A stretch of 64,000 nt of DNA. Source: Hydrogenophaga sp. NFH-34. GTDB taxonomy: Bacteria; Pseudomonadota; Gammaproteobacteria; Burkholderiales; Burkholderiaceae_C. The position numbers and the translations under genes are program-made. The stretch lies in contig NZ_JACBGE010000007.1 in the NCBI RefSeq assembly GCF_021401345.1, forward strand, positions 124,001 through 188,000, read 5' to 3'. This document shows positions 15,989-58,030 of the stretch, piece after piece. Position 1 is the stretch's first letter. Every line of letters begins with the position of its first letter. The notes beneath the pieces are model-generated. The model saw nothing but the letters and a program-made list of their open reading frames with translations, did no database searches and was not told the origin of the DNA.

Positions 15989-16065
<77 letters not shown>

Positions 16066-19933: not shown

Positions 19934-20734
19934 TCAGGTCTCCGGCACGAAGCGCGGGGCGCGTTTTTCCAGGAAGGCGCGCACGCCTTCGCGCGCGTCG
20001 GCGCTGGCCCCGCTGGCCACCATGCCCAGGTGCTCCATCGCCAGTTGCTGGTGCAGCGTGTGGTGTGCGGCCTGGTCCACCAGGGTCTTGATGCGGGCGA
20101 GCGATCCGCCCGCGCCCTGGGCCAGCGCGCGCACCAGCGCCTGCGCGGCGGGCAGCAGCGCGTCGTCAGCGTGCACCTCGGCCACCAGGCCAGCGGCCAG
20201 GCACTGGGCGGCGTCCAGCGGCTGGTTGGTGAACAGGATGTGTTTGGCACGCATCGGGCCGACCAGGCGGGTGAGCGCCCAGGACACGCCCACGTCGGGA
20301 CTGAGGCCGATGGCCGAGTAGCCGCCGCGCAGCTTCATGGAGCGCGCCGCGAGCACGATGTCGGCGCACAGCGCCACACCGATGCCCCCGCCGCCGAGCG
20401 AACCCTGCACGGCGCTGACCACGGGGGCGGGCAGGTGGCTCAGGGTGTGGATGGCTGCGTGCAGCGGGGGAATGCCCTGGTCGAGCAGGGCGGCCATGTC
20501 GGCGGCGGCGGCGAAGCCGCGGATGTCGCCGCCGGCACAGAAGTGCGGCCCTTGCGCGGTCAGGAGCACGGCGCGCACGGTGCCACGCTGCTGTGCGGCG
20601 GCGACTTCGCCGACCGCCTCGACGAAGGCAGCGCCGGTGGCGTCGTCGAGCACGTTGGCCTGTTCGGGCCGGTTGAGGGTGAGGGTGGCGACGTGGTCGC
20701 GGATGTCCAGCAGGATGGGGGGCGTCATGGTCAT
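19934..20734 (-). CDS. Enoyl-CoA hydratase/isomerase family protein
   Basis: 266 residues. Crotonase motifs: PHFCAGGDIRGF and SLGGGGIGVALCADIVLA. The second catalytic region reads GLSPDVGVSW, with an aspartate as in PaaG-type isomerases and no glutamate, so isomerase activity is more likely than hydration. ATG 20734 is chosen; the frame stays open to a TTG at 20755. First gene of the minus-strand operon, with a predicted transcription start near 20776 from the conserved regulon promoter, leaving a 40-base leader. Confidence 0.8.
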   Translation of the reverse strand: MTMTPPILLDIRDHVATLTLNRPEQANVLDDATGAAFVEAVGEVAAAQQRGTVRAVLLTAQGPHFCAGGDIRGFAAAADMAALLDQGIPPLHAAIHTLSHLPAPVVSAVQGSLGGGGIGVALCADIVLAARSMKLRGGYSAIGLSPDVGVSWALTRLVGPMRAKHILFTNQPLDAAQCLAAGLVAEVHADDALLPAAQALVRALAQGAGGSLARIKTLVDQAAHHTLHQQLAMEHLGMVASGASADAREGVRAFLEKRAPRFVPET

Positions 20735-20782: not shown

Positions 20783-20824
20783 AGTGTGGAAGCGCGCGGG
20801 GTGGGCGTCTTGCGTCGACTGGCT
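20783..20824 (-). promoter_or_regulatory. Regulon promoter module, site 1 (minus-strand crotonase operon)
   Basis: Box AGCCAGTCGACGCAAGAC (20807-20824), 18-bp gap, -10-like CACACT (20783-20788), read on the minus strand. Drives the genes from 20734 down to 16171. Back to back with site 2, 37 bp away. Confidence 0.8.
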
Positions 20825-20861: not shown

Positions 20862-20903
20862 AGCCATTGGGCGCAAGACGGTCGGGCGCGTGGTGGGCAC
20901 ACT
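20862..20903 (+). promoter_or_regulatory. Regulon promoter module, site 2 (DUF2889 gene)
   Basis: Box AGCCATTGGGCGCAAGAC (20862-20879), 18-bp gap, CACACT (20898-20903). Predicted start near 20910, 47 bases before the DUF2889 gene. Confidence 0.8.
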
Positions 20904-20956: not shown

Positions 20957-21514
20957 ATGCCCCTGCCGCCGCCCGACTGCCCGCGAGAACCCAGCCAGCA
21001 GCGCCAGATCCGCATCGAGGGTTTCCGGCGCGCGGACGGTCTCTGGGACGTGGAAGGGCATCTGTTGGACACGCTGCCGCACGACGTGCAGGTCGGGGGT
21101 GGTCTGCGGCGCGCGGGCGAGCCGATGCATGCCATGGCACTGCGCCTGACGGTGGACCTGCAGGCCAGCATCCGGGCGGCGGTGGCGGTGTCCGATGCGC
21201 ACCCCTTTGCCGGGGTGTGCGGGCGCATCACGCCGGCCTACGAACAACTGGTGGGTTTGCGCGTGGGGCCGGGGTTTCGGCGCCAGGTGCGCGCGCTGTT
21301 CCCGCCTTCTGCGGGCTGCACGCACCTGAGCGAGCTGGTGCTGGCGCTGGGCACGGGCGTGCTGCAGACGCTGGCCACCGCGCTGCACCGCGACCCGGCG
21401 GTCAAACCGTTCAGCCTGGATGGCTGCCACGCGCTGATGACCGACGGGCCCGTGGTGCGGCAGTTCCATCCCCGCTGGTACCGCGGGGTGGACGCGCTGC
21501 CGCCTGCGGCCTGA
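20957..21514 (+). CDS. DUF2889 domain protein
   Basis: 185 residues, unknown function. It matches the DUF2889 pattern from memory of the family: an N-terminal RQIRIEGFRRADGLWDVEGHLLDT, a central HAMALRLTVD, and a conserved GxAGCTHLSEL-type region (here SAGCTHLSELVLALG). No signal peptide or membrane segment. ATG 20957 has GAGGAG at 20943-20948. It is controlled by its own copy of the regulon promoter, so a role in the acyl-CoA pathway is likely, but the chemistry is unknown. Confidence 0.8.
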   Translation: MPLPPPDCPREPSQQRQIRIEGFRRADGLWDVEGHLLDTLPHDVQVGGGLRRAGEPMHAMALRLTVDLQASIRAAVAVSDAHPFAGVCGRITPAYEQLVGLRVGPGFRRQVRALFPPSAGCTHLSELVLALGTGVLQTLATALHRDPAVKPFSLDGCHALMTDGPVVRQFHPRWYRGVDALPPAA

Positions 21515-21529: not shown

Positions 21530-22354
21530 TCAGGCGCTCCCTGCCGGCGGGGGCGCCACGCCGTAGCTGCGGGCCATGCCGGCGCGCACGTCCATCTGTA
21601 CGCCGTAGGGCGGGATGGGGTAGCGCAGGCCGTTGGCCGCCAGCCGCTCGACCCCCGCGATCGCCTGGGCCAACTGGGCCGGCCGCAGCGCCAGCAGCAG
21701 TTCGTCGTCGGGCACGCCGCCGTAGCGCCGTTCGGGAAAACACGGCAGCGCGAGGCTGGGTTCGCCCGTGGCCAGGGCCCGCCCCCACGAATCGGCGCAG
21801 GCCGATTCCCCCACCGCGCCCCATTCGAGGCGGCGGTAGCCGGCCCATTGCAGACCGTTGATCAGCAGGATCATCTGCGCCGGGTTGGCGTAGACCAGTG
21901 CGATGTCGGGATCGGGCAGGCGGCCCGCGTTCAGCGGCGACACGGCCATGGCGGCGTAGCGACCGTGCGGCGCGCAGTGCATGGCGCGCTGGTGGGCGGC
22001 GGCGTCGGCGGGCGTGGCGAACCACACGCCCACGAAGGGCGTGCCTTGTTCGAAAGCCTCGTCGCGTGGTGACAGGCCCAGCACGGCGCTGCACTGCGGC
22101 CCGACCAGATCGGCGGCGGTGATGCCGACGGTCTGGCCGAGCCGGGCCGCCTGGCCGACGATCTGGTCGGCGGTGTGGATGCCGGTCGGGCGGCGCAGGC
22201 GGGGCACGCTCTGCAGATCGGCCTCGTGTGGAAACAGCTTCATCGCCACGGGCGTGGTCTTGAGGCGCAGCAGGCGAAACAGCGCTTCGGTCAGTACGGC
22301 GCCGTCGGGTGGGGTGGTCTCGGGCGGGGCGGGGTGGGGCGTGGGGTCGGTCAT
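21530..22354 (-). CDS. DUF169 family protein
   Basis: 274 residues, unknown function. DUF169-type features: LKTTPVAMKLF near the N terminus, GPQCSAVLGLSP with a conserved cysteine, and PDIALVYANPAQMILLINGLQW. A second cysteine pair lies around GESACADSWG and LALPCFPERRYGG. Cytoplasmic. The start codon coincides with the predicted transcription start from the promoter module at 22361-22402, so the message is probably leaderless. Convergent with the DUF2889 gene and divergent from the ligase gene. Confidence 0.78.
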   Translation of the reverse strand: MTDPTPHPAPPETTPPDGAVLTEALFRLLRLKTTPVAMKLFPHEADLQSVPRLRRPTGIHTADQIVGQAARLGQTVGITAADLVGPQCSAVLGLSPRDEAFEQGTPFVGVWFATPADAAAHQRAMHCAPHGRYAAMAVSPLNAGRLPDPDIALVYANPAQMILLINGLQWAGYRRLEWGAVGESACADSWGRALATGEPSLALPCFPERRYGGVPDDELLLALRPAQLAQAIAGVERLAANGLRYPIPPYGVQMDVRAGMARSYGVAPPPAGSA

Positions 22355-22360
22355 GGGCGC

Positions 22361-22402
22361 AGTGTCTGGCGCGGGGCGGGCCAGGTCTTGTGCCCAGTGG
22401 CT
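22361..22402 (-). promoter_or_regulatory. Regulon promoter module, site 3 (DUF169 gene)
   Basis: Box AGCCACTGGGCACAAGAC (22385-22402), 18-bp gap, GACACT (22361-22366), minus strand. A start seven bases downstream of the hexamer falls on the A of the DUF169 ATG at 22354. Confidence 0.8.
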
Positions 22403-22482: not shown

Positions 22483-22524
22483 AGCCAGTTGGCACAAGAC
22501 CGCGCTGATCCCCTTGCCTAGGAT
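22483..22524 (+). promoter_or_regulatory. Regulon promoter module, site 4 (ligase-SDR-SDR-ACAD operon)
   Basis: Box AGCCAGTTGGCACAAGAC (22483-22500), 18-bp gap, TAGGAT (22519-22524). Predicted start near 22531, 57 bases before the ligase gene. Divergent from site 3. Confidence 0.82.
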
Positions 22525-22587: not shown

Positions 22588-24195
22588 ATGAGCGCCACCG
22601 CCACCCCTTCCGACCTCCACGCCCCGTCGGCCCTCGACATGAACCTGATCGAACGGGTCTGCGTGGGCGACATCATCCAGCGTTCCGCCGACGTCTACCC
22701 CGACCGGATCGCGCTCGTGGACGGCGAGCGCCGGCTCAGCTATGCCGAATTCAATGCCCGGGTCGACCAGCTCGGCCACGCCCTGCTGGGCCTGGGCCTG
22801 CAGCACCAGGACATCGTGGCCCTGGCCGCGCGCAACCGGCTGGAAATGCTGATCACCTATTTCGCCTGCGCCCGCGCCGGCCTGATCTGCATGCCGATCA
22901 ACCTCGGCCTGCGCGCAAGCGAGATCGCGTTCTGCCTGCGCGATGCGCGGGCGCGCGTGCTGATCGCCGAACACGCGCTGCGCGACGTGGTCGAGGCGGC
23001 CCGGCAGGAAGCGCCGCCGGAGCTGGCGCACGTGTTCTGGTTCGGCGGCGGGTCGCCCGCGCCGGCCGAAGACTTCGATGCGCTGCTGGCCTCGGGCCAG
23101 ACCGGACCGCTGGAAGTGCTGGTGCGCGACCGCGACGTGGTGCAACTGCTCTACACCAGCGGCACCACGGCCAACCCCAAGGGCGTGCTCACCAGCCACG
23201 TGGCGGTGACCATCGCCGGCCTGTCCAACGCCATCGTGCACCAGTGCACGCCCGACATGTCGGCGCTGGTCGGTCTGCCGCTGTTCCACTGCGCGATGCT
23301 CAATTCCGTGGCGATGCCGTTCCTGACGGTGGGTGGCAAGCTGGTGCTGACTCAGGGCTTCGATCCGGCCGACAGCGCACGCCTGATCGACGAACACCAG
23401 ATCAACGTGATGGTGCTGCTGCCCATGATGTACGGCGTCTGGCTCAGCGACCCGGCCTACCGGGGCCGCACCTTCCCGTCGATGAAGCGCGCCATGTACG
23501 CCATGGCGCCCATGCCGCCGGAGCGGCTGGAGGCGATCCACGGCATGTTCCCCAACGCCGACGTGGTGCTGGGGTCGGGCCAGACCGAGTTCACGCCGGC
23601 CACCTGCGTGCAGCGGCCCGAACACCAGTGGTCCAAGGCGGCGACCTGGGGCACGGCCACGGTGATGACGCGCGTGGCCATCATGGACGAGGACGGCCGG
23701 CTGCTGCCGCGCGGCGAGACCGGCGAGATCGTCTACCGCGGCCCGCAGGGCATGCAGGGCTACCTGAACCTGCCGGCGGAAAACCACAAGAGCTTCCGCC
23801 ACGGCTGGTTCCACAGCGGCGACGTGGCCCACATCGACGAGGACGGCGCCATCTGGTTCAAGGACCGCTACAAGGACGTGATCAAGTCCGGAGGTGAGAA
23901 CGTGGCCAGCATCGAGGTCGAGCGCTGCCTGCTGCAGCACCCGGCCGTGGCCGACGTGGCGGTGATCGGCGCGCCGCACGAACGCTGGGGCGAGGCGGTG
24001 GTGGCCAGCGTGGTGCTGGCGCCCGGGCAGCAGGCCGACGAGGCCGCGCTGATCGCGCATTGCCGCGAACACCTGGGCGGCTTCAAGGTGCCCAAGGCGG
24101 TGGTGATCGTCAGCGAGTTTCCGCGCACCGGCACCGGCAAGATCCAGAAGCACCTGATCCGTGCCGAACTGAAGGGCCTGTTCGATGCCGCCTGA
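22588..24195 (+). CDS. AMP-forming acyl-CoA ligase
   Basis: 535 residues. Activates a carboxylic acid to its CoA thioester. AMP-binding loop YTSGTTANPKG at residues 189-199, then GSGQTEFTP, WFHSGDVAHIDEDGAIWFKDR, KSGGENVASIEVE and the C-terminal TGTGKIQKHL with the catalytic lysine. ATG 22588 is chosen over an upstream GTG at 22546 because GGAGAC sits at 22573-22578. First gene of a four-gene operon; its end overlaps the next gene by 11 bases. Confidence 0.88.
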   Translation: MSATATPSDLHAPSALDMNLIERVCVGDIIQRSADVYPDRIALVDGERRLSYAEFNARVDQLGHALLGLGLQHQDIVALAARNRLEMLITYFACARAGLICMPINLGLRASEIAFCLRDARARVLIAEHALRDVVEAARQEAPPELAHVFWFGGGSPAPAEDFDALLASGQTGPLEVLVRDRDVVQLLYTSGTTANPKGVLTSHVAVTIAGLSNAIVHQCTPDMSALVGLPLFHCAMLNSVAMPFLTVGGKLVLTQGFDPADSARLIDEHQINVMVLLPMMYGVWLSDPAYRGRTFPSMKRAMYAMAPMPPERLEAIHGMFPNADVVLGSGQTEFTPATCVQRPEHQWSKAATWGTATVMTRVAIMDEDGRLLPRGETGEIVYRGPQGMQGYLNLPAENHKSFRHGWFHSGDVAHIDEDGAIWFKDRYKDVIKSGGENVASIEVERCLLQHPAVADVAVIGAPHERWGEAVVASVVLAPGQQADEAALIAHCREHLGGFKVPKAVVIVSEFPRTGTGKIQKHLIRAELKGLFDAA

Positions 24196-25914: not shown

Positions 25915-27135
<1,221 letters not shown>

Positions 27136-27240
27136 GGTCCCGGCGCCTGGCCGGGCGGGCCGCAGCGCAGTGTTCGGACCTGGGGTTAACCCTCGATCTG
27201 CCCGCCTGCCGGAACGCTGTCACCCAGGTGCGTATCCGAT

Positions 27241-27282
27241 AGCCATTTGACACAAGACAATGACCAGGGGGGTGCCTACACT
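27241..27282 (+). promoter_or_regulatory. Regulon promoter module, site 5 (araC-type gene)
   Basis: Box AGCCATTTGACACAAGAC (27241-27258), 18-bp gap, TACACT (27277-27282). It lies in the gap 27136-27370 ahead of the regulator gene; predicted start near 27289. Implies autoregulation. Confidence 0.82.
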
Positions 27283-27370
27283 GGAAGCCAGACCGGGATA
27301 ACCCGGCTGGTGGCAGACAACGAGCCGTCAGGCAGGCCCCGAGCGTGCCGACGGCCACCAGGAGACAACG

Positions 27371-28210
27371 ATGCGTATTGACCAGGATCGTCCGTACGCG
27401 ATCAGTGCGCGGGGCATCACCAGCGCCGAACGTGTGATGTGGATCACCCCTGATCGCGTGTTTTATGCCGGGCTGCTCGGCACGCCCACCACCCGCAACT
27501 ACGGGGCGCTGTTCGTTTACGTGGCGCTCGACAGCGAGGTGAAGCTGAGCATCGACGGGCAGGCGTGGCAGAGCGGCAATGTCGCGGTGCTGCAGCCTTA
27601 CACCAGCCACCGCGTTGCCTGCGACGCGCGCCACGTGGTCACGGTCATGATGGAGCCCGAATCGGTCGACATGGCGCGCCTGCCCGGGTGGCTGCGCGAC
27701 AACCAGGGCGTGATCGAGGCCGAAGAATTCCGCCGCCGCGTGCTGCGGGCGCACCAGGAAATCTTGCGCAACGGCCACCAGGCCGACGCCCCGATGTTCG
27801 ATTTCGACGAACTGGTGTTCGGCACCCGCCTGCCGGCGCGCTCGGTGGACCCGCGCATTGCCCAGGTGCTGGAGCGTATCCGCACCGACCCGTCGAGCCA
27901 GGCGCTGGCCCAGGACTGTGCCGAACAGGTGCACCTGTCGTTCTCCCGATTCCTGCACCTCTTCAAAAGCGAGGTGGGGGCATCGTTCCGGAGCTTCCGC
28001 ACCTGGAAGCGCGCGCGCAGCCTGCTGCACTACGTGGTGGACCAGCGCTCCACCCTCACCGACGTGGCGCTGGGCGCGGGCTATCCCGATTCCACCCACT
28101 TCAGCCACTCCATCCGGCAGGTCTACGGGCTCAAGCCCAAGGACATCTTTGCCGGTTCGCGCAAGCTGCGCGTGATCGGCCCGGGCCAGCCCCAGGGCCA
28201 GTACGCCTGA
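27371..28210 (+). CDS. AraC-family transcriptional regulator (candidate regulon activator)
   Basis: 279 residues. The N-terminal part (to about 160) looks like a cupin-type ligand-binding domain: LSIDGQAWQSGNVAVLQPYTSH. The C-terminal AraC DNA-binding domain has two helix-turn-helix units: about 179-200 (ALAQDCAEQVHLSFSRFLHLF) and about 228-251 (LTDVALGAGYPDSTHFSHSI), followed by GLKPKDIF. It is the only regulator in the catabolic island and carries the conserved box in its own promoter, so it is the leading candidate to bind all thirteen boxes. The inducer is unknown; an acyl-CoA or the growth substrate is a guess. AGGAGAC precedes the ATG. Confidence 0.9.
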   Translation: MRIDQDRPYAISARGITSAERVMWITPDRVFYAGLLGTPTTRNYGALFVYVALDSEVKLSIDGQAWQSGNVAVLQPYTSHRVACDARHVVTVMMEPESVDMARLPGWLRDNQGVIEAEEFRRRVLRAHQEILRNGHQADAPMFDFDELVFGTRLPARSVDPRIAQVLERIRTDPSSQALAQDCAEQVHLSFSRFLHLFKSEVGASFRSFRTWKRARSLLHYVVDQRSTLTDVALGAGYPDSTHFSHSIRQVYGLKPKDIFAGSRKLRVIGPGQPQGQYA

Positions 28211-28371
28211 TCCGCCCAGGCGGTGCGGGGGACGCCCCGCCCATGGTCCGGCGCAGCCGGCCCCGTTCAGTCTGACCACGGACCCGCGCCCCCACCGGCA
28301 GCGGGCCGGGCGGGTGCGTGCCCGAGCGGCGTCCCCGGCCGGATGTTTTTCCATCCCTGTTGAGGGCCGCC

Positions 28372-29579
<1,208 letters not shown>

Positions 29580-29583
<4 letters not shown>

Positions 29584-30665
29584 GCGGCGCCACCGCAACC
29601 CGCCCGGGCGAAGGAACGCCCGCGCCCACGGTGGTCAGCGCCCCGCCGCTGGACCTGCCACGGCTGGAGCGCCACTTCGCCCGGCACGTGCCCGGCGTGG
29701 GGTGCCTGTACGAGGCGCGGCGCATCGTCGGTGGCAACTCCAACCCGATCTGGCGCCTGCGCGCCGACGGCGGTGCGTACATCCTGCGCACCCAGCCGGC
29801 GGGCGCGCTGCTCAAGTCGGCGCACGCGCTGGACCGCGAGGTGCGTGTCATTCAGGCGCTGGACGGCACCCCGGTGCCGGTGGCGCGCATCCACCACCTG
29901 TGCAACGACCCCGACGTGATCGGCGTGCAGTTCTACCTGATGGACTGCATCGACGGCGAGGTGCACCGCGAAGTGGCCATGCCCGGCCTGTCGCGCGAGC
30001 GCCGCACCCACCTCTACCGGGCCGCCCTGGACACGCTGGTGGCCATCCACCGCACCGACCTGCAGGCCACCGGGCTGGCCGACTTCGGTCGCCCGGGCAA
30101 TTACTTTCAGCGCCAGCTGCACCGCTGGACGCAGCAATACCGCACGGCCCTGCCGGAAGGCCTGCCCGCGGTGGACGCGCTGATCGATGCGCTGGTGCCC
30201 CAGGTGCCGCAGGCGGAGGCGCCCACGGTGCTGCTGCACGGCGACTGCCGGCTCGACAACCTGATGTTTCAGCGGGGCACACACCGCGTGCTCGCCGTGC
30301 TCGACTGGGAGCTGTCCACGCTGGGCCATCCGCTGGCCGACCTGGGGCAGTTCCTGGGCGTGCAGGAGCTGGCGCCCGATTACCTGCTGCCCGGCCTGGC
30401 CGGCATGGACCGCGCGGCGCTGGGCATCCCGTCGCAGCGCGAGATGGCGCGCTACTACCTGGGCCGCATGGGGCTGGCGCCCGACACCGACCTGCGCTTC
30501 TACAAGGCCTTTGCGCTGTTCCGCCAGGCGGCCATGTCGGCCGGCCTGCTGCGGCGCGCGCGCGAGGGCACGGCGGTGGCCGAAAGCGCGCTGGCCTTTG
30601 GTGAGAGCACCGAGGTCTTCGCCGAAACCGGGCTGGCCGTTCTGGACCGCCCCGACGTGGCCTGA
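29580..30665 (+). CDS. Aminoglycoside-phosphotransferase-like kinase (ACAD10/11/LvaA type)
   Basis: 361 residues, APH/choline-kinase fold. Nucleotide loop region [13 protein letters not shown], the Brenner catalytic motif [13 protein letters not shown], and the metal-binding [15 protein letters not shown]. Proteins of this subgroup next to ACAD10/11-type dehydrogenases phosphorylate the 4-hydroxyl of 4-hydroxyacyl-CoA, and the ACAD partner then eliminates phosphate. That activity is inferred from family and context. Antibiotic resistance is unlikely in this setting. Confidence 0.83.
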
Positions 30666-30679
30666 CCCGGCAACCGACC

Positions 30680-32011
30680 ATGGCCCGCGATTTCACGGAT
30701 CCCCAGTTGCAGCAGATCGCGCGCCCGCCCGAAGCGCTGGCGCTGACCGCACTGCAACAAGGCGACACCGACACCCTGCACCGCGCGCTGGACGAGATGG
30801 CGGCGGGGCATGCCGGGCTCGACGCGCTGTCCCTGCACGCGCTGGCACGCAAGGCCGGCAAGCTGCACCAGGACTTTGGCGAAGACCGCGCGCGCGAAGC
30901 GCTGGAGCGCATCGGCCGCCAGCTCATGGCCACCTGGGTCGCGCAGTGGCAGGCCGGCGGGGTGGACGACGTGCGCGGCGCCATCGCCGACCTGGTCGCC
31001 ATCTTCCGCCACCAGGTGGGGGCCGATCTGGCCCCGCTGGAAGAAGACGGCACGCACGTCACGCTGCACCTGCGGGCCTGCGGCAGCGGTGGCCGCATCG
31101 ACCGCCAGCGCCTGGCCGAGCGGCACCCGCAGGCCTACGGCCCCTGGCGCGATGGCGTCAACAGTTTCTGCCAGGGTTGCCAGGCGCAGCAGCGTGCGCT
31201 CAACGGGGCGCTGGGCTTCGACGCCTGGACGGCCGACAAGCAGCCCGGGGGTGCCTGCGTGCTGCGCTTTCACAAAGGCGCGCAGGCGGGCCGTGTGCTG
31301 TTCAGCGACGCCGAGCGCCTGGCCCTGACACGCACCCGGGTCGACCAGGCGCGCGACCGGCTGGCGCAGGGCGACACCGCCATCGAATCCCTGCTCGACG
31401 GCCAGCGCAAGGAGTGGATGCCCTGGCACGACTTCGGTGTGGTCTGGCTGGCGCACTTCTACGCGATCGCGCTGGAGCTGGGCGGCCCCGACTATCTGGA
31501 CGAGCTGCTGGCCCAGACCTACGAGCCGGCCTTTGTGGCGGGCTTTCCGCGCTACGCCGCGCTCGACGACGAGGCGCTGGTGCGCGAGATCGCGCGCACC
31601 TGGAACTACCACTGCGCCGATTTCCACCTGCACGAGGAAGACGACCGCTTCGTCTTCACGCTCGACCCCTGCGGCAGCGGTGGGCGCCTGCTGCGCGCGC
31701 AGATGTGGCGTGGCCTGTTCCGCTACGGCGCGCCGCTCTCGCCGCGCATGCCCGAGGCGCACCCGATCAATTTCCTGCGGCGCGACGCGCCCACCTACTG
31801 CACGCATTGCGCGGCCTCCAACCGTGCGCAACTGGGCCGGGCCAGCGACCCCGCCGTGCCGCTGTTCTTCGTCATCGACGGCCATGCGCAGCGCGCGCCC
31901 GGCATGCCGTGCCGCACCTTTGTCTACAAGCGCCAGGCCGACCGTTCGCGGGTCGACCCCGCGCTGTTCCACCAGGTGGGCTTGCCTGCGCCCGCCGCTT
32001 CCCATCCTTGA
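30680..32011 (+). CDS. Unknown protein with duplicated CGSGGR...CxxC unit
   Basis: 443 residues, no family recognised. It contains two copies of one unit. Copy one has LRACGSGGRI (C134) and NSFCQGCQAQQRAL (C164, C167). Copy two has LDPCGSGGRLL (C331) and PTYCTHCAASNRAQL (C374, C377). Between them a conserved MPWHDFGVVWLAHFYAIALELGG joins the halves. The three cysteines per unit suggest a metal site or Fe-S cluster. No signal peptide or membrane segment. Lies 14 bases after the kinase gene and upstream of an SDR gene, so it probably acts in the same pathway. Confidence 0.8.
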   Translation: MARDFTDPQLQQIARPPEALALTALQQGDTDTLHRALDEMAAGHAGLDALSLHALARKAGKLHQDFGEDRAREALERIGRQLMATWVAQWQAGGVDDVRGAIADLVAIFRHQVGADLAPLEEDGTHVTLHLRACGSGGRIDRQRLAERHPQAYGPWRDGVNSFCQGCQAQQRALNGALGFDAWTADKQPGGACVLRFHKGAQAGRVLFSDAERLALTRTRVDQARDRLAQGDTAIESLLDGQRKEWMPWHDFGVVWLAHFYAIALELGGPDYLDELLAQTYEPAFVAGFPRYAALDDEALVREIARTWNYHCADFHLHEEDDRFVFTLDPCGSGGRLLRAQMWRGLFRYGAPLSPRMPEAHPINFLRRDAPTYCTHCAASNRAQLGRASDPAVPLFFVIDGHAQRAPGMPCRTFVYKRQADRSRVDPALFHQVGLPAPAASHP

Positions 32012-32022
32012 GGAGTCCCACC

Positions 32023-32805
32023 ATGAGTTCCCCCGCCGGCGCCCCGCGCCACCCCTTCGACCTGTCCGGGCGGATCGCCCTGGTCACCGGCTCCACCATG
32101 GGCATCGGCGAGGCCACGGCGCGTGTGCTGGCGCAGGCCGGCGCGCACGTGATCATCAGCAGCCGCAAGCCCGAAGATTGCGAGCGTGTGGCCGGTGAGC
32201 TGCGCGCCGACGGTCTGAGCGCCGAAGGCCGCGCCTGCCACATCGGCCGCATGGAAGACATCGCCGCCATGGGCGAGCACCTGCAGGCCACGCACGGCGG
32301 GCTGGACATCCTGGTCAACAACGCGGTGCTCAGCCCGCTGCGTAGCATCGACGACACCGAACCCGGCCTGTTCGCCAAGACGGTGGAGGTCAACCTGCGC
32401 GGCTACTGGTATCTCTCGCTCGAAGCCACCCGGCGCATGAAGCCGCGCGGCGGCGGCAGCATCGTCAACATCGCCTCCATCGCGGCGCTGCACCCCGACC
32501 GCGGCCTGGGCCTGTACTCCACGCTCAAGACCGCGCTGATCGGCATGAGCCGCAGCTTCGCGCTGGAATACGGCGAACACGGCATCCGCGTCAACACCGT
32601 GATGCCGGGCCTGATCAAGACCAAGCTGGCCAACGCCTACGACCCCGAGCAGCAGGCCCGCACCATCGCGCGCACGCCGGTGGGCCGCCTGGGCGAGGGC
32701 GAAGACATCGGCCACGCCGTGCTCTACCTGAGCAGCCCGGGCGCGGCCTTCGTGACGGGGGCGAGCCTGGTGGTGGACGGGGGGCTGACGATAGCGTCGC
32801 TGTGA
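32023..32805 (+). CDS. Short-chain dehydrogenase/reductase
   Basis: 260 residues. TGSTMGIG cofactor motif, NNAVLSPL where most SDRs have NNAG, catalytic region NIASIAALHPDRGLGLYSTLK (Y-S-T-L-K rather than Y-x-A-S-K) and the C-terminal GASLVVDGGLTIASL. ATG 32023 with GAGGAG upstream. It could interconvert hydroxy and keto acyl intermediates, the LvaD-like step, but the substrate is not visible. Followed by an intergenic repeat. Confidence 0.85.
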   Translation: MSSPAGAPRHPFDLSGRIALVTGSTMGIGEATARVLAQAGAHVIISSRKPEDCERVAGELRADGLSAEGRACHIGRMEDIAAMGEHLQATHGGLDILVNNAVLSPLRSIDDTEPGLFAKTVEVNLRGYWYLSLEATRRMKPRGGGSIVNIASIAALHPDRGLGLYSTLKTALIGMSRSFALEYGEHGIRVNTVMPGLIKTKLANAYDPEQQARTIARTPVGRLGEGEDIGHAVLYLSSPGAAFVTGASLVVDGGLTIASL

Positions 32806-32806
32806 G

Positions 32807-32878
32807 CTCCCCCCTGCGCCGCTGACGCGGCTTCCCCCCTCTCTGGCGCACCGCTGCGCGGTGCTGGGAGGGGGGACG
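32807..32878. repeat. Dispersed GC-rich hairpin repeat, intergenic copy
   Basis: Core CCCCCCTGCGCCGCTGA (32809-32825), then a nested hairpin: TCCCCCCTC pairs with GAGGGGGGA around an inner GCGCACCG/CGGTGC stem. The 221-base gap 32806-33026 holds this element plus GC-rich sequence and no gene. Related copies: 37041, 52380, 43331 and inside recG. Confidence 0.6.
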
Positions 32879-33026
32879 CACCCTACGGCCCGGCAAAGCC
32901 GGTTCCGTGGGTGCCTGGGGCCTGAACTTCCCCGCATTCGTCGCCTGTCTTTCGCCTTGCCTTTGCCGCCCCTCGCGGGAACGGGGGCCGAGAAGGCAAC
33001 ACGCACATTCACCTTGGAGAACCCAC

Positions 33027-34028
33027 ATGAAAGCTGTGCTCTGCAAACAATACGGACCGCCCGCGTCGCTGGTGGTGGAGGCGGTGCCATCGCCGCAGCC
33101 CGGGCCGGGGGAGGTGGTGGTGGCGGTGCATGCCGCGTCGGTGAATTTTCCCGACGGGCTGATCATCGAGAACAAGTACCAGTTCAAGCCCGAGCTGCCG
33201 TTTTCGCCCGGCGGCGAGGTGGCGGGCACCCTCAGCGCCATCGGGCCCGGGGTCAGCGGCTGGGCCGTGGGCGACCGGGTGATCGCGGTCTGCGGCTGGG
33301 GCGGCTTCGCCGACGAGGTGAAGGTGGCGGCGGGCAAGCTCATCCGCCTGCCCGAGGGCATTGGCATGGACGCGGCGTCGGCGCTGGTCATCACCCACGG
33401 CACCACGCATTACGCGCTGCAGGTGCGCGGACAACTGCAACCGGGCGAGACCCTGCTGGTGCTCGGCGCTGCGGGCGGCACCGGCCTGTCGGCGGTGGAG
33501 TTGGGCAAGCTCATGGGCGCGCGCGTGATCGCGGCGGCCTCCAGCGACGAGAAGCTCGCGCTGTGCCGCGCGGCCGGCGCCGACGAGGTGATCAACTACG
33601 CCACCGAAGACCTGCGCGAGGCGCTCAAGCGGCTGACGGGCGGGCGCGGCGTGGACGTGGTCTACGACCCGGTGGGGGGCGACTACACCGAAGCCGCGCT
33701 GCGGTCCATGGCCTGGGGAGGGCGGCTGCTGGTCATCGGCTTCACCGCCGGCACCATCCCGCGCCCGCCGCTGAACCTGCCGCTGCTCAAGGGCTGTTCG
33801 CTGGTCGGCGTGTTCTACGGCGGCTTCACCGAACGCGAGCCCGACCGTGCCGATGCGCTGATGCAGCAGTTGCTGGGCTGGCTGCGCGAAGGCCGGGTGC
33901 GCCCGGTGATCAGCGAATACCTGCCGATCGAGCAGGCCGCACAGGCGCTCGACACCGTGGGCCAGCGGCGCGCGCGCGGCAAGATCGTGCTGACCACGGC
34001 GCTGGGCCGTTCGGCGGGGCTGCCATGA
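33027..34028 (+). CDS. NADPH:quinone oxidoreductase-like MDR protein
   Basis: 333 residues, zinc-free medium-chain dehydrogenase/reductase. MKAVLCKQYGPPASLVVEAVP, the HAASVNFPDGLI substrate region, NADPH-binding VLGAAGGTGLSAVELGKLMGARVIAAASS, and the C-terminal ARGKIVLT. No zinc-ligand cysteines in the catalytic position. Probably reduces an enoyl/keto intermediate. ATG 33027 follows TTGGAGAA; the frame extends 40 residues upstream into the repeat, which is not real. Stop overlaps the next start. Confidence 0.85.
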   Translation: MKAVLCKQYGPPASLVVEAVPSPQPGPGEVVVAVHAASVNFPDGLIIENKYQFKPELPFSPGGEVAGTLSAIGPGVSGWAVGDRVIAVCGWGGFADEVKVAAGKLIRLPEGIGMDAASALVITHGTTHYALQVRGQLQPGETLLVLGAAGGTGLSAVELGKLMGARVIAAASSDEKLALCRAAGADEVINYATEDLREALKRLTGGRGVDVVYDPVGGDYTEAALRSMAWGGRLLVIGFTAGTIPRPPLNLPLLKGCSLVGVFYGGFTEREPDRADALMQQLLGWLREGRVRPVISEYLPIEQAAQALDTVGQRRARGKIVLTTALGRSAGLP

Positions 34029-34795
34029 AGGTGCAAGACACGGTGGTGGTGGTCACCGGGGGCGGCAGCGGCATCGGCGCCGCGCTGGCGCGCGCCTGCG
34101 CCCAGGCCGGTGCGGCGCAGGTGGTGGTGAGCGATCGCGATGCGGCCGCGGCCGAGACGGTGGCGCGCGCCATCGGCGGTCATGCGATGGCCGCCGACGT
34201 GGCCGACGAAGCGCAGACGGTGGCGCTGATCGACGAGACCGAGCGCCGCTTCGGCCCCATCGGCCTGTTCTGCGCCAACGCCGGCGTATCGGTGCAGGGC
34301 GGGGTGGAGCGACCCGATGCCGACTGGCAGCGGCTGTGGCAGATCAACGTGATGGCGCACGTGCACGCGGCGCGGGCGCTGGTGCCGCGCATGCTGGCGC
34401 GCGGCGGCGGGCACCTGCTGTTCACGGCGTCGGCCGCCGGCCTGCTGTCGCAGTTCGACGCGCCGTACGCGGTCACCAAACACGCGGCGGTGGCGCACGC
34501 CGAGTGGCTGGCCATCACGCACGGTGGCGAGGGCCTGGGCGTGAGTTGCCTGTGTCCGCTGGGTGTGGACACGCCGATGCTGCAGGCCGAAGCCGGGGCG
34601 CGGCGCGAACTGATGTCGGCCGGCCTGCTCAGCGCCGAGGCGGTGGCGCAGGCCACGCTCGACGGCCTGGCGGCGGACGAGTTCCTGATCCTGCCGCACC
34701 CGCAGGTGCGCGAGTACATGCGGCGCCGGGGCGACGACCACGCCCGCTGGTTGCAGGCCATGCGGCAGTTTCACGCGCAGGCCCGCGGTGGCTGA
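34025..34795 (+). CDS. Short-chain dehydrogenase/reductase
   Basis: 256 residues. TGGGSGIG motif, CANAGVSVQGG, catalytic TASAAGLLSQFDAPYAVTKHA and the C-terminal HPQVREYMRRRGDDHARWLQAM typical of the same SDR subgroup as the gene at 24996. ATG overlaps the preceding stop (ATGA), so translation is coupled. Confidence 0.83.
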   Translation: MKVQDTVVVVTGGGSGIGAALARACAQAGAAQVVVSDRDAAAAETVARAIGGHAMAADVADEAQTVALIDETERRFGPIGLFCANAGVSVQGGVERPDADWQRLWQINVMAHVHAARALVPRMLARGGGHLLFTASAAGLLSQFDAPYAVTKHAAVAHAEWLAITHGGEGLGVSCLCPLGVDTPMLQAEAGARRELMSAGLLSAEAVAQATLDGLAADEFLILPHPQVREYMRRRGDDHARWLQAMRQFHAQARGG

Positions 34796-35702
34796 AGCCG
34801 CCGCGCGGGTGCGCGCCATGCTGCTGATCACCACCTTGCTGTGGGGGGTGAACCTGACCGCCATCAAGTGGCTGACCGGTCTGTTCGATCCGGTGCTGCT
34901 GTCGGGCGTGCGCATGCTGGCCGCGCTGCTGCCCATGCTGGTGCTGCTGCGCCTGCGGCGCTGCTGGCAGACGCCTTCGCGCGCGCAGTGGCGGCAACTG
35001 GCTGCCTGCGGCGTGCTCATGGTCTACCTCAACCAGTGGTGGCTGGCCGAAGGGCTGGCGCGCAGCAGCGCCACCCACGGCGCGCTGATCACGGCGCTCA
35101 ACCCGCTGCTGTCGGCCATGCTCGCGCTGTGGCTGCTGCGCGAGGCGCTCAGCGGCCGGCGCCTGTGCGGCGTGGGATTGGGGTTGGCGGGGGTGGCGCT
35201 GGTCATCCTCAACCGGCCCGGCGCCGAGCTGGCGCAGGGGGGGCTGGGCGACGGGCTGGTGGTGCTGGCGGTGCTGGTGTTCACGCTGGGCGCGGTGCTG
35301 ATCCAGCGCCTGGCCGCCGACCTCAACGCGGTGGTGATCGGGGTTGGCGTGCACGCGGTCGGGGCTGCCTGCCTGCTGGTGCACGCGGTGGTGCAGGGGG
35401 CCTGGAACGGGTGGCCCGCCATGCCGGCGCCAGGCAGTGGCTGGTGGGCCATCGCGGTGCTGTCGGGGGCGCTGTCGACGGGCCTGGGCAACCTGATGTG
35501 GAACCGCGCCATCGGTCTGGTGGGCATGGCCCGTGCAGCGGTCTGGCTGTACTGGGTGCCGCTGTTCGGGGTGGCGTCGGCGGTGGTCCTGCTGGGCGAG
35601 CCGCTGACCGTCTGGCACGCGCTGGGCCTGGGGCTGGTGTTCATCGGTACCCACCTGGGCACGCATGTGGCGCGGGTACCACGCGCCACCGGTCCGGTCT
35701 AG
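34788..35702 (+). CDS. EamA/DMT-family permease
   Basis: 304 residues with about ten hydrophobic segments and the internal two-fold repeat of the drug/metabolite transporter superfamily (first half TLLWGVNLTAIKWLTGLFDPVLLSGVRM; second half VLAVLVFTLGAVLIQRLAADLN). GTG start at 34788, overlapping the SDR gene by eight bases; ATG 34818 is an alternative. May export a metabolite or pathway by-product; the substrate is unknown. Last gene before a regulon promoter. Confidence 0.8.
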   Translation: MAEAAARVRAMLLITTLLWGVNLTAIKWLTGLFDPVLLSGVRMLAALLPMLVLLRLRRCWQTPSRAQWRQLAACGVLMVYLNQWWLAEGLARSSATHGALITALNPLLSAMLALWLLREALSGRRLCGVGLGLAGVALVILNRPGAELAQGGLGDGLVVLAVLVFTLGAVLIQRLAADLNAVVIGVGVHAVGAACLLVHAVVQGAWNGWPAMPAPGSGWWAIAVLSGALSTGLGNLMWNRAIGLVGMARAAVWLYWVPLFGVASAVVLLGEPLTVWHALGLGLVFIGTHLGTHVARVPRATGPV

Positions 35703-35721: not shown

Positions 35722-35763
35722 AGCCAGTGGGCACAAGCGGGCAGGGGCGGGCGTTCCTAGCAT
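35722..35763 (+). promoter_or_regulatory. Regulon promoter module, site 6 (TRAP binding protein 2)
   Basis: Box AGCCAGTGGGCACAAGCG (35722-35739), 18-bp gap, TAGCAT (35758-35763). The last two box bases deviate. Start predicted near 35770, 96 bases before the gene. Confidence 0.75.
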
Positions 35764-35865: not shown

Positions 35866-37029
35866 ATGACCCCCTGGATTCGCCGAGCAATCGGCCTGAC
35901 CGCCGTTGTGGCCGCCGCCACATCCCTGGTGCTGCCCGCACAGGCGCAGAACCGCGAACTGCGTTACGCCATCGGCCAGCCGCCGAGTGCCCTGCCCGTC
36001 ATCGGCGGGCAGGCGTTCGCCAAGGCGGTGGCCCAGGCCACCGAGGGCAAGCTCACCGTCAAGGTGTACGCGATGTCGCTGCTGAACATGGCCGAGACCT
36101 CGGCGGGCCTGCGCGACGGCCTGGCCGACATCGGCTTCGTGCTGACGCCGTACTTCCCGGCCGAGTACCCGCACACCAACGTGATCTCCGAGGCCTCGAT
36201 GATGCTGCGCCTCATGGGCGACAAGGTGCGCGGCAAGGAGGGCCTGGCCTACATCCCGGCCATGACCGAATTCATCTTCACCAAGTGCCCCGAGTGCCAT
36301 GAAGAGTTCGCCAAGCAGAACCAGGTCTACACCGGCCACGTGGGCGGCTCCAGCTACGGCCTGATCTGCAACAAGCCCGTGAAGTCCGAAGCCGACATGA
36401 AGGGCAAGCGCTTCCGCGTGGGCGCGGCCAACTGGGCGCGCTGGGTCACGGCCATGGGCGGTTCGCCCGTGACCATGTCGGCCAACGAAATGCTCGAAGC
36501 GCTCAAGCAGGGCGTGGTGGACTGCATCGTGCTGTCGTCACCGGAGATCCGCAACTTCGGCCTGACCGAGGTGGTGACCGACATCGCCATGGCCGCACCC
36601 GGGGGCATCTTCTCCACCGCCGGTTCCAACGTGAACATGCGCGTCTGGCGCAGCCTCACGAACGAGCAGCGCGCAGCCTTGCTGCGCGGCGCGTCCGTGG
36701 CCGCGGCCAACGTGCCGTTCGCCTACCACCGGGTGGAAAACGAGGTGCTGGACCAGATGAAGAAACGCGGCGCGCGCATCCACGAGACCGACCCGGCCCT
36801 GGTGCAGAAGTCGCAGGTCTTCATCGAGCAGGACATGAAGACCATCGCGGACTACTTCGCGTCCAAACACGGGGTCAAGCGCAGCGCCCAGATGCTGGCC
36901 GAGTTCCGGCCCATCCTGAGCAAGTGGGTCGACCTGGTCCAGACCGTGAGTACCGAAGAACAGTACGCCGACCTGTACTGGCGCGAGGTGTTTTCCAAGG
37001 TGGACACCGCCACCTACGGCATGAAGTGA
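35866..37029 (+). CDS. TRAP transporter solute-binding protein, DctP family (paralogue 2)
   Basis: 387 residues, periplasmic. Signal peptide ending AQA-Q at about residue 28. Family regions [33 protein letters not shown] and YWREVFSKVDTATYGM. CPEC motif with C141 and C144, plus cysteines in LICNKP and VVDCIVLS, as in paralogues 1 and 3. A single-gene transcription unit: its own regulon promoter upstream and a strong terminator downstream. No membrane subunits adjacent. Confidence 0.88.
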   Translation: MTPWIRRAIGLTAVVAAATSLVLPAQAQNRELRYAIGQPPSALPVIGGQAFAKAVAQATEGKLTVKVYAMSLLNMAETSAGLRDGLADIGFVLTPYFPAEYPHTNVISEASMMLRLMGDKVRGKEGLAYIPAMTEFIFTKCPECHEEFAKQNQVYTGHVGGSSYGLICNKPVKSEADMKGKRFRVGAANWARWVTAMGGSPVTMSANEMLEALKQGVVDCIVLSSPEIRNFGLTEVVTDIAMAAPGGIFSTAGSNVNMRVWRSLTNEQRAALLRGASVAAANVPFAYHRVENEVLDQMKKRGARIHETDPALVQKSQVFIEQDMKTIADYFASKHGVKRSAQMLAEFRPILSKWVDLVQTVSTEEQYADLYWREVFSKVDTATYGMK

Positions 37030-37210: not shown

Positions 37211-39016
37211 TCAGCCCAGTTGTCGGGCCAGTGCCTTCGGCACCGCGATGGGCAGGTCCAGCAGCATCTGGCCCATGCCCTTGCCCAGCGGGTCCATGCG
37301 GGCGGAGGCGGGGCCGCCGCCGTCCAGCGCCTGTTCCATGGTGATGTTCATGGCGTGGATGCCGGGCAGGTAGAAGCGCCGGACCTCGCCCTTGACCAGG
37401 TGGGCGAAGTAGGCCTTGACCACCTCGGGCGTGAGCCGGGCCCAGATCAGCGGCATCCAGGCCGGGTCGCGGGCGATCAGGCCGATGTTGGAGATGTCGC
37501 CCTTGTCACCGCTGCGGGCCCAGGCCAGACGCACCAGGGGCACGTCCACCGTCTCGGTGTCGGCGGAGCCCCATTCGGCGGGTGCCAGTGCTGCGGGGGC
37601 GGTGGCGTCGCCCGTACCGGGCGCGATGGCGGCAGGCTGGGCCTGGCCGTCGACCACCACGGTCACCGGCACCTCGGTCTTTTTCACCAGCAGCGACAGC
37701 GGCTTGATGTTGGGCGAAGCGCTGGGCCGGCCGGTGCTGGGGCCGGTGGTGCCGGGCGACCACGAGGTGCCCGAGGGCGCGATCTCGCGCGCGAAGATCT
37801 CCAGCGCCTGCTTCATCGGGTGCGTGACCGCGATGCGCACCATCACCTCGCGCGAAGCGCCGGTGCGCGCGTGCGGCCCGTACAGCGTCTCGGCGCCGAG
37901 CAGGGCCACGTTCGCGCTGGTGTAGCCGGGCAGGCCCAGGCTTTTCAGCAGGGCGCTGGTGCGGGCGATCACCGCCTCGCCCGTGCGCTGGGCCTTGGCG
38001 GCGGCGTCGATGCCGATGATGACCATGGTGCCCGCGCAGCGCCAGCCGTCGAGCTGGGTGGCCGAGACTTTGTAGCTGTCGGTCGGTGCGCGCCCCAGGG
38101 CGCCGCTGACACGCACGCGCTCGGGCGACAGCTGCTCGATCACCACCTGGCGGAAGTCGCAGGTCACGTCGGGCAGCAGGTAGGCGCCCGGGTCGCCGAT
38201 TTCGTAGAGCAGCTGTTCGGCCACCGCGGCGCGGGCGATGAGGCCGCCGGTGCCGGCAGGTTTGGTCACCTCGAAGCTGCCGTCGGCGTGGCATTCGATG
38301 ATGGGGTAGCCGATGTTCGGCCAGTCTTCCACGCGTTCCCAGTCGGTGTGCAGGCCGCCGGTGGCCTGGCAGCCGCATTCGACGATGTGGCCCGCCAGGC
38401 TGCCCCCGGCGAGTGGGTGCCAGTCGTCCGGCGTCCAGCCGAATTCGTGGATCAGCGGGCCCAGCGTGGCGGCGCTGTCCACGCCGCGGCCGGTGATGAC
38501 GATGTCGGCCCCGGCCGCCAGCGCCTGCGCCACCGGGAAGGCGCCCAGGTAGGCGTTGGCGCTCAGGATCTTTTCGGGCAGCGCCTCGCCGCTGAACATG
38601 TCGCGCACGCCGGCTTCGCGCAGGCGCGGCATCTGGGCGCTGATGTCGTCGCCCGTGACCACCGCGATGCGCGGCTTCAGCCCCAGCGTGTCGGCCAGCG
38701 CCCGCAGCGCGTCGGCGCAGCCCTGCGGGTGGATGCCGCCGGCGTTGGCCACCACCTTGATGCCGCGGCGCATCACCTCGGGCAGCACCGCCTTCATGGC
38801 GATGTCGACGAAGTCGGTGGCGTAGCCCATCTCGGGCTTCTTGGCACGGGCGGCGGCGAGGATCGCCATGGTGGTCTCGGCCAGGTAGTCGAACACCAGG
38901 TAGTCGATCTGCCCGCTGTTCACCAGTTGCGGGGCCCCCACCATGCTGTCGCCCCAGAAGCCCGAAGCGCCGCCGATGCGGACGGTCTTGTTTGCGGTTG
39001 TCTCTTGTGTCGCCAT
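37211..39016 (-). CDS. AtuA-family (acyclic terpene utilization) protein
   Basis: 601 residues. N-terminal DUF1446/AtuA domain: RIGGASGFWGDSMVGAPQLV, DYLAETTMAIL, NAGGIHPQGCADAL and the conserved GRGVDSAATLGPLIHEFGW. The C-terminal about 110 residues (LVRLAWARSGDKGDISNIGLIAR..) form the AtuA-like ferredoxin-fold domain, here fused. AtuA is required for citronellol/geraniol growth in Pseudomonas but its reaction is unknown. ATG 39016 is set by homology and by the regulon promoter 29 bases upstream; the frame stays open far beyond, antisense to other genes. Confidence 0.88.
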   Translation of the reverse strand: MATQETTANKTVRIGGASGFWGDSMVGAPQLVNSGQIDYLVFDYLAETTMAILAAARAKKPEMGYATDFVDIAMKAVLPEVMRRGIKVVANAGGIHPQGCADALRALADTLGLKPRIAVVTGDDISAQMPRLREAGVRDMFSGEALPEKILSANAYLGAFPVAQALAAGADIVITGRGVDSAATLGPLIHEFGWTPDDWHPLAGGSLAGHIVECGCQATGGLHTDWERVEDWPNIGYPIIECHADGSFEVTKPAGTGGLIARAAVAEQLLYEIGDPGAYLLPDVTCDFRQVVIEQLSPERVRVSGALGRAPTDSYKVSATQLDGWRCAGTMVIIGIDAAAKAQRTGEAVIARTSALLKSLGLPGYTSANVALLGAETLYGPHARTGASREVMVRIAVTHPMKQALEIFAREIAPSGTSWSPGTTGPSTGRPSASPNIKPLSLLVKKTEVPVTVVVDGQAQPAAIAPGTGDATAPAALAPAEWGSADTETVDVPLVRLAWARSGDKGDISNIGLIARDPAWMPLIWARLTPEVVKAYFAHLVKGEVRRFYLPGIHAMNITMEQALDGGGPASARMDPLGKGMGQMLLDLPIAVPKALARQLG

Positions 39017-39044: not shown

Positions 39045-39086
39045 AGCGTAGCAGGGCCGGCGCCGGCTGGCTTGCGGCCAGTGGCT
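39045..39086 (-). promoter_or_regulatory. Regulon promoter module, site 7 (AtuA-family gene)
   Basis: Box AGCCACTGGCCGCAAGCC (39069-39086), 18-bp gap, TACGCT (39045-39050), minus strand. One box base deviates. Start predicted near 39038. Confidence 0.72.
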
Positions 39087-39127: not shown

Positions 39128-39169
39128 GACCAATTGACGCAAGACGGGGGCGGGTGTGTCGCCCACACT
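39128..39169 (+). promoter_or_regulatory. Regulon promoter module, site 8 (BioD-like gene)
   Basis: Box GACCAATTGACGCAAGAC (39128-39145), 18-bp gap, CACACT (39164-39169). Back to back with site 7, 41 bp away. Start predicted near 39176. Confidence 0.77.
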
Positions 39170-39217: not shown

Positions 39218-39904
39218 TTGGCCTTCCATCCTGCCCGCCAGACGGTTGCTGAACCGGCTCCCGCCTCGTTCTGTGTGCTGGGCATGGCCGAGAGCGTGCA
39301 CTGGGTGTCGCTCGCGCTCATGCGGGCGGTGCGGGCCCAGGGGTTTCGCACCACCGGCCTGATGCCGGTGGCGCGCGACGCGCAGTGGCGCCATGGCCGC
39401 TGGCACAGCGCGCGCGTGGCGCGCCTGCAGGCGGCCAGCTCGTTCGACTTCCCGGCCAGTGCGCTGTGCACCGCGCCCGTGCCCGATCCGGCGGTCACGG
39501 CCGCGCCACCCCGGTTCGACCCGGAGGCGGTGGCCGAGAGCTACGCCGCACTGGCCACCTGGACCGACGTGGTGGTGGTTGACGGCGTGGGCGACCCCGA
39601 CGCGGCGCTGGCGCCGGGCTTCACGCTGGCAGATCTGGCGCAGTCGCTGGGGCTGCCGGTGATCGTGGTGTGCGAGGACGACGCCGCGGCGCTGCAGGCG
39701 TCGTGCGCGCTGGTCAAACGCTGCCGCGCCCGCGGCCTGCGCGTGGCGGGCTGGGTGCAGGTGGGGCAGCACCCGCAGGCCTGCGCGGCCGGCATCCCCC
39801 GGCTCGGGGTGCTGCCGCGCGATGACCTGCAGCAGCCCGGGGTCGCCGCCTGCCACGTCGATGCGGCCCGGCTGATCGAGGCGCTGGGGCCCGCCACCCC
39901 CTGA
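39218..39904 (+). CDS. BioD-like protein, probable pseudoenzyme
   Basis: 228 residues, resembling dethiobiotin synthetase along its whole length: SLALMRAVRAQGFRTTGLMPVARD corresponds to the BioD alpha1-beta2 region, and VVVVDGVGD to the VEGAGG loop. The P-loop is gone: GMAESVHWV (22-30) where BioD has GTDTEVGKT. The BioD lysine in GYKPVASG is M49. ATP-dependent ureido-ring closure is therefore unlikely. TTG 39218 is chosen because CCAGGA lies at 39205-39210 and the start lies after the predicted transcription start. Its own regulon promoter and the nearby biotin-dependent carboxylase genes make a regulatory or biotin-related role possible. Confidence 0.75.
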   Translation: MAFHPARQTVAEPAPASFCVLGMAESVHWVSLALMRAVRAQGFRTTGLMPVARDAQWRHGRWHSARVARLQAASSFDFPASALCTAPVPDPAVTAAPPRFDPEAVAESYAALATWTDVVVVDGVGDPDAALAPGFTLADLAQSLGLPVIVVCEDDAAALQASCALVKRCRARGLRVAGWVQVGQHPQACAAGIPRLGVLPRDDLQQPGVAACHVDAARLIEALGPATP

Positions 39905-57964: not shown

Positions 57965-57975
57965 TGCCTGCCGGA

Positions 57976-57998: not shown

Positions 57999-58030
57999 CT
58001 GGCCTTTTCCATTCCCTCTAAGGTGTCGCC

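Follow-up and report, generated by a model that had tools for sequence, protein, structure and literature searches.

A candidate AraC-family activator and its 18-bp promoter box in a putative acyclic-isoprenoid catabolic island

The gene at 27371-28210 of the window (the whole 64,000-nucleotide stretch of DNA analysed here) can be read with good confidence as a local AraC-family activator of an acyclic-isoprenoid (atu-like) regulon, whose binding, activation, inducer and feedback we infer. Judging from sequence, this gene very probably turns on the thirteen boxed units of the island around it. On this reading, a large regulon for terpene degradation can be assigned a protein, a precise recognition sequence and a promoter of fixed layout; its members become predictable by sequence, and the promoter could possibly be used as a portable inducible one.

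The regulator gene and its island

The regulator and its own promoter are made up of three features:
27241-27258, + strand: 18-bp regulon box AGCCATTTGACACAAGAC in the regulator's own promoter (sequence match; held-out matrix score 35.6)
27277-27282, + strand: -10 element TACACT, 18 nt 3' of the box (spacing rule)
27371-28210, + strand: AraC-family regulator of 279 aa (Pfam, AlphaFold2 model and fold matches)

The protein matches PF12833 (HTH_18; 52 bits, E 7e-14) and PF00165 (34 bits, E 2e-8), and an AraC-family gene with the box in its own promoter is indeed found where the preliminary description placed it, except that the 113 bp given there from box to start is 112 nt to the ATG on recounting. 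With a matrix built from the other 12 window sites and the own-gene site excluded, that site scores above all 12 training sites (28.7-35.1).

The island begins at about 16.2 kb, to the right of ribosomal protein and rpoA genes and a tRNA-Met gene. It holds acyl-CoA ligases, dehydrogenases, hydratases, SDRs, a thiolase and a FadB-type protein, as well as three TRAP solute-binding proteins with DctQM, an AtuA-family protein and a biotin-dependent carboxylase. The tRNA-Met gene (15989-16065) sits at the left edge of the island, just past rpoA and the L17 gene, and is a possible integration point. Two genes at the window's right end are boxless: a Cons_hypoth698 gene (61414-62484) and a second gene with a carboxyltransferase domain (PF01039, 62468-63958). 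A Pfam DNA-binding domain is present in 1 of the 37 gene models between 16171 and 61404, which bears out the claim that this is the sole recognisable DNA-binding regulator of the island; a LysR-type gene at 3179-4138 lies inside the window and outside the island. The regulator had also been described as near the centre, a placement that has to be corrected to about one quarter of the island's length from its left edge.

The island looks like an acyclic-isoprenoid (atu-like, acyclic-terpene) catabolic cluster, a putative substrate class suggested by its gene content because it encodes an AtuA-family protein and a carboxylase closer to geranyl-CoA carboxylase:
37211-39016, - strand: AtuA-family protein (PF07287, 471 bits; the sole match in the genome)
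43579-45198, + strand: geranyl-CoA carboxylase beta subunit, AtuC-like, the target of the comparative test below (651 bits to geranyl-CoA carboxylase 5ikl versus 471 to methylcrotonyl-CoA carboxylase 3u9r)

The count of thirteen boxed units stands, with 13 boxes preceding 13 units, the regulator's own included. The other boxes are as follows:
20807-20824, - strand: before the enoyl-CoA hydratase gene 19934-20734 and those downstream of it
20862-20879, + strand: before the DUF2889 gene 20957-21514
22385-22402, - strand: before the DUF169 gene 21530-22354
22483-22500, + strand: before the acyl-CoA ligase gene 22588-24195 and those downstream of it (to 27135)
35722-35739, + strand: before the TRAP solute-binding protein gene 35866-37029
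39069-39086, - strand: before the atuA-like gene 37211-39016
39128-39145, + strand: before the AAA_26 gene 39275-39904 (weaker, two core mismatches)
39917-39934, + strand: before the acyl-CoA dehydrogenase gene 40004-41845
41850-41867, + strand: before the acyl-CoA dehydrogenase gene 41946-43115
43476-43493, + strand: before the geranyl-CoA carboxylase beta gene 43579-45198 and those downstream of it (to 52376)
56608-56625, - strand: before the FadB-type gene 54447-56552, with thiolase and hydratase genes downstream of it
56669-56686, + strand: before the TRAP transporter genes 56846-59896

At the DUF169 promoter (window 22354-22402), the -10 element (GACACT) ends 6 nt before the predicted ATG, and the mRNA may therefore be leaderless.

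Promoter layout and proposed mode of action

In the 13 window sites, as in 80 sites from relatives and the window, the conserved site reads YAGCCA-N-T-N3-CRCAAGMC, with nothing strong after it until TANNNT(G). The AraC geometry proposed in the preliminary description, two short blocks one helical turn apart, fits this alignment, as the 80 sites show blocks of the AGCCA/CAAGAC type. The distance to the -10 can be taken from 49 perfect boxes selected blind to it, where TANNNT stands at spacer 18 in 26 and at spacer 19 in 6, all remaining offsets between 0 and 39 being empty, with about 0.2 expected per offset; the stretches searched include L100, L109, L110 and L111, which had been chosen for a strict match. 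TANNNT is missing at 18-19 in 17 of the 49, and NANNNT is present at 18 in 40 of the 49. Because TANNNT sits only 18-19 nt after perfect boxes, CAAGAC occupies the -35 position. A search allowing up to two mismatches found 138 boxes, and the 80 with NANNNT at 18 were used for the column profile, in which the -10 is circular by selection and the flanks are not. No column of these 80 aligned sites exceeds 0.25 bits between -90 and -2, which argues against a fixed second half-site, direct or inverted, upstream.

How rare the box is depends strongly on how much of it is demanded. The 18-mer with at most three mismatches occurs six times in the window (0.02 expected), and the core AGCCA-N7-CAAGAC with at most two mismatches occurs 27 times (16.9 expected), only a mild enrichment. 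Thirteen of these 27 cores, those with NANNNT at 18 nt, were kept and 14 were dropped, and the A and T found in 13 of 13 -10 elements are circular because the sites were picked for NANNNT; the 49 perfect boxes above and the genome-wide module count below are fairer tests. The 5.18-Mb genome has 12 exact cores, of which 8 fall inside the window, as compared with 3 for the backward control. When the box is joined to N18 and TANNNT (14 fixed bases) and at most one mismatch is allowed, the genome holds 11 sites (3 perfect, 8 with one mismatch), all inside the island at C70:144783-180710, or window 20783-56710. Sites with two mismatches number 20 genome-wide and 1 in the window, and matches with up to three mismatches are mostly noise, because the genome gives 226 of them versus 172 for the backward control.

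In the mechanism proposed here, each target promoter would carry one 18-bp site, AGCCANTNNNCRCAAGMC, with its downstream block CAAGMC at the -35 position and a -10 of TANNNT 18 nt (sometimes 19) downstream. The inducer-bound protein on this site would recruit or hold the housekeeping sigma-70 polymerase, that is, class II activation from one monomer-sized site. Overlap of the site with the -35 position at a fixed distance to the -10, a class II feature, is seen in 32 of the 49 perfect boxes. The -35 position of the sites reads AAGMCN, with 2-3 of 6 fixed matches to TTGACA; for the site at 27241 the hexamer is AAGACA, a 4/6 match 17 nt before TACACT. As a good -35 hexamer is absent, these promoters are expected to be weak in the absence of bound protein.

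A box over the -35 position is also where a bound protein could block polymerase, and the known atu regulator is a repressor (PMC9973270), which together raise the possibility that the AraC protein binds the box as a repressor and is released by inducer, like AtuR in Pseudomonas. We consider this unlikely, since with such poor matches at -35 the promoters would be weak unaided, and since a fixed spacing of 18-19 nt is needed by an activator but not by a repressor. AraC-family proteins with this layout are mostly activators.

Several boxes lie back to back in divergent pairs, which are found both in the window and in relatives:
Window: 20824/20862, 22402/22483, 39086/39128, 56625/56669
Relatives: L016, L019, L056, L057, L062, L066, L074, L076, L095, L099, L109, L111

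In 8 of 16 pairs the starts are 38-44 bp apart, the rest being separated by 7, 7, 14, 35, 49, 60, 61 and 81 bp. A spacing of about four helical turns is thus favoured between divergent boxes, among pairs that are not independent because some are orthologous. The two pairs with starts 7 bp apart overlap (L095 19801/19808 and L111 13377/13384), an arrangement that might mean mutual exclusion or joint reading.

Co-occurrence of regulator and box across genomes

Of the 399 family genomes, 25 (counting that of the window itself) have a relative of the regulator at E<=1e-30, and these 25 belong to 14 genera of the one family. The regulator of Lampropedia aestuarii is 72% identical. A further relative (48%) of this betaproteobacterial regulator turns up in L020, from a MAG labelled Desulfovibrionaceae, which suggests misbinning or transfer. 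The strict module (spacer 17-18) is present in 20 of the 399 genomes, namely 16 of the 25 with a regulator relative and 4 of the 374 without one, where 'without' refers to a first-pass search scoring at most six candidates per genome; the Fisher value for this co-occurrence is 6e-19, a figure that is only a guide as the genomes are related. Two of the 399 genomes have the backward pattern. Three of the exceptions with module and no regulator (G110, G254 and G325) look like chance matches; in the fourth, G317, the box looks plausible but the 15 kb read contain no homologue of the island. Nine of the 25 regulator-bearing genomes have no strict module. In six of these the carboxylase gene is preceded by a relaxed form, and in G132 the carboxylase gene (69%) is boxless. 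The other two, G241 and G368, share a near-box with CAAGCC just behind the regulator and lack any match to the carboxylase at E<=1e-200.

Matrix hits in the 26 neighbourhoods of regulator relatives number 62, versus about 6 for column-permuted matrices, and are unevenly spread, with none in 4 neighbourhoods and only one in 11. This total includes L100 of G129 and excludes seven stretches that had been chosen because of a strict hit (G296x, G011x, G071x, G317, G325, G110 and G254; 9 hits). Across relatives of 35-72% identity the two recognition helices hardly vary, which parallels the conservation of the box. Variants of the box, AGCTA/AGCAG with CAAGCC or CAAGCG, occur in G215, G285, G122, G255 and G378; when the alignment was inspected by eye for covariation between recognition helices and box variants, no residue stood out as a partner.

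The geranyl-CoA carboxylase beta gene allows one target to be followed with and without the regulator. A match at E<=1e-200 is present in 117 of the 399 genomes, 23 with the regulator and 94 without. Where this gene is at least 70% identical, a box precedes it in 21 of 22 genomes with the regulator, at a distance of 33-155 nt, versus 0 of 4 without (G273, G098, G046 and G162, at 70-79%). The figure of 21 of 22 combines 18 of 19 by matrix (lowest score 15.8) with G318, G376 and G175 by strict-pattern coordinates, and the sole miss is G011. Lowering the cut-off to 68%, with G132 counted, gives 21 of 23 versus 0 of 5 (Fisher 2e-4), the close-identity control being small at 4 or 5 genomes. At lower identity, regulator-free genes are boxless as well (0 of 1 at 68%, G093; 0 of 6 scored at 64-67%, best score 4.6), 11 of the 94 having been matrix-scored. 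The strict module stands right before the carboxylase gene in 15 of 23 genomes with the regulator versus 0 of 94 without. No box with at most two mismatches is found in the 20 kb around each of four regulator-free genes. Extra copies of the carboxylase gene in regulator-bearing genomes are boxless as well: the second copy of G378 and those of G255 (58%) and G272 (65%). One AraC-type gene does lie beside a regulator-free carboxylase gene, in G098; it belongs to another clade, scoring 16 bits to the regulator family profile (built without L024, which has a broken frame), and has no box in 20 kb.

Both comparisons, by genome and by target gene, support the earlier proposal that the AraC protein is the reader of the box. 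Part of the co-occurrence could reflect shared descent, because the regulator and the pathway genes travel together. Linkage alone is insufficient, however, because boxed gene and regulator lie apart in several genomes: in G296 the boxed carboxylase gene is about 180 kb from the regulator, and in G071 it is on another contig, as expected of a site read in trans.

The conserved blocks with a -10 at fixed spacing could also be taken for the promoter of an alternative sigma factor, or for the site of an unlinked chromosomal regulator, the AraC gene being a mere target that is boxed like every other unit. This is improbable, since the module tracks the AraC gene over the 399 genomes, the same target gene is boxless where the AraC gene is missing, and four other genomes of the same genus have neither the regulator (E<=1e-30) nor the strict module. 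In addition, the -10 is sigma-70-like, and the 18-bp upstream part is too long for the usual -35 element. The clustering of eleven similar short sequences in a single island might suggest a mobile or repeated sequence spread by the island with no regulatory role, a highly improbable explanation given that conservation is limited to the 18-bp site and the -10 and leaves out spacer and flanks, that window sites share the strand of the gene that follows and lie 30-159 nt ahead of its predicted start, and that the position before the same gene is conserved across many genomes.

The four same-genus genomes without the regulator (G114, G208, G280 and G341) have a carboxylase beta gene that is 65-66% identical, and that of G208, the only one checked, is boxless. 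At E<=1e-200 the window's genome has only its own version of the carboxylase, which gives the impression that one set of genes took the place of the other.

Returning to the AraC-family activator, the proposal that it regulates its own gene is supported for this gene and some relatives and not as a general rule. A box within 350 bp upstream is found above a shuffle-based threshold in 11 of 36 relatives, or 12 of 37 with the window. For this survey, start codons were chosen manually, L026, L027, L028, L031 and L054 were dropped as duplicates, L023 was dropped for missing upstream sequence, and L022 had too little sequence. The own-promoter box is present in near relatives (Hydrogenophaga MAG L013, Lampropedia L014 and Ramlibacter MAG L016) and absent from L015, at 59% identity. 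Behind the regulator lie seven boxless genes in the same direction:
28423-35702, + strand: ACAD, APH-type kinase, 443-aa unknown, SDR, Zn-ADH, SDR, EamA

These genes are, from their arrangement, probably co-transcribed from the regulator's promoter. The 443-aa gene (30680-32011) in this probable operon has no Pfam or NCBIfam match. A terminator scan of 27000-28700 found none, a weak test as shuffles give 0.8, and a consensus promoter scan of the same interval also found none, which says little because only 0.2 are expected by chance. With seven boxless genes in the same direction and no terminator found, the box may act for the operon no less than for the regulator. Through the box at 27241 the regulator would come under the control that governs the other units, as probably would the seven following genes, resulting in positive feedback in this lineage.

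The regulator protein and its relation to known systems

The AlphaFold2 model, made with 12 sequences, has a mean pLDDT of 77.8 (lower, about 62-76, from residue 211 on) and shows an N-terminal cupin-like domain at about 20-135 and a C-terminal double helix-turn-helix at about 160-262, with helices 191-202 and 241-252 in its two motifs. The AraC DNA-binding domain 2k9s is matched by sequence (E 3.5e-5), and the protein has only AraC-type domains, with the TetR N-terminal DNA-binding domain absent. The N-terminal domain has no Pfam match; the model has strands at 21-94, and at the fold level the domain matches the regulatory domains of AraC, RhaR and BgaR, of the cupin/jelly-roll type, with middling Z scores of 6.1-8.6. 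The best full-length folds are ToxT, Rns and CsvR (VIA Z 8.7-10.8 over 195-226 residues; Foldseek E from 6e-8), a likeness of shared fold only because identity is 8-12% and the rmsd 4.6-5.2 Å. These three are virulence regulators, not catabolic ones, and in the ToxT/Rns subgroup the ligand carboxylate is held by basic residues between the domains. Several of these structures have fatty acids bound, and their PDB titles name an unsaturated fatty acid and decanoic acid as ligands, which are chemically near an isoprenoid acid. As the best fold matches include fatty-acid-bound structures, an isoprenoid acid is a reasonable guess for the inducer, and the N-terminal cupin-like domain would probably sense such an acid or its CoA ester.

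The predicted system shares features with several groups of activators. Like the class II catabolic activators of the AraC/XylS family, it combines a double helix-turn-helix with two blocks one helical turn apart and a fixed -10 distance. XylS- and AraC-type promoters usually carry two half-sites, unlike the single 18-bp site seen here, which has no second half-site in the 90 bp upstream (80 sites). The single-site layout is instead like that of MarA and SoxS, monomeric activators that use one asymmetric site of about 20 bp per promoter, and the DNA-binding domain can be aligned with theirs (1bl0, Z 7.4; SoxS complex 7w5w, Z 6.6). MarA and SoxS are not known to have an N-terminal sensor domain, whereas the island regulator has one.

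In Pseudomonas, the atu cluster is under AtuR, and a close relative, RdmA, controls the dmg cluster; according to PMC9973270, both are TetR-family repressors with an operator of two 13-bp inverted repeats, AGCAAGCGCTTGG / CCAAGCGCTTGCT. As described there, the regulator gene adjoins a cluster with atuA and geranyl-CoA carboxylase genes, which is also the case here. Unlike those TetR repressors, the regulator here is of the AraC family and is paired with an asymmetric 18-bp box at thirteen promoters. For Thauera, PMC4847356 mentions a TetR-type gene whose role is unclear. A search of open-access literature by title and start of abstract gave no AraC-type atu regulator among the matches listed, and in the passages seen of open-access texts naming both AraC and geranyl-CoA carboxylase, the carboxylase appears in reference lists only and the AraC contexts are unrelated. 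We regard this as a new regulon of a known regulatory kind, the AraC family. It raises the question of how one pathway comes to have two unrelated regulators, AraC-type here and TetR in Pseudomonas.

A wider picture can be drawn, which we offer tentatively as possible rather than probable. A distinct lineage of AraC-family isoprenoid-acid sensors would occupy the place of AtuR as acyclic-terpene master regulator in this Burkholderiales family, with the single monomer-sized site serving as a -35 substitute. The resulting 42-bp cassette could be placed before any operon and would now stand at thirteen units of one island, and at divergent promoters, where cassettes are about four helical turns apart, two bound molecules could come into contact.

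Compared with its nearest relatives (L013 and L014), the regulator shows 71-73% identity, while matched neighbouring enzymes are 75-94% identical and the AAA_26 protein 57%. Because the DNA-binding part is conserved, it is the sensor part that changes faster.
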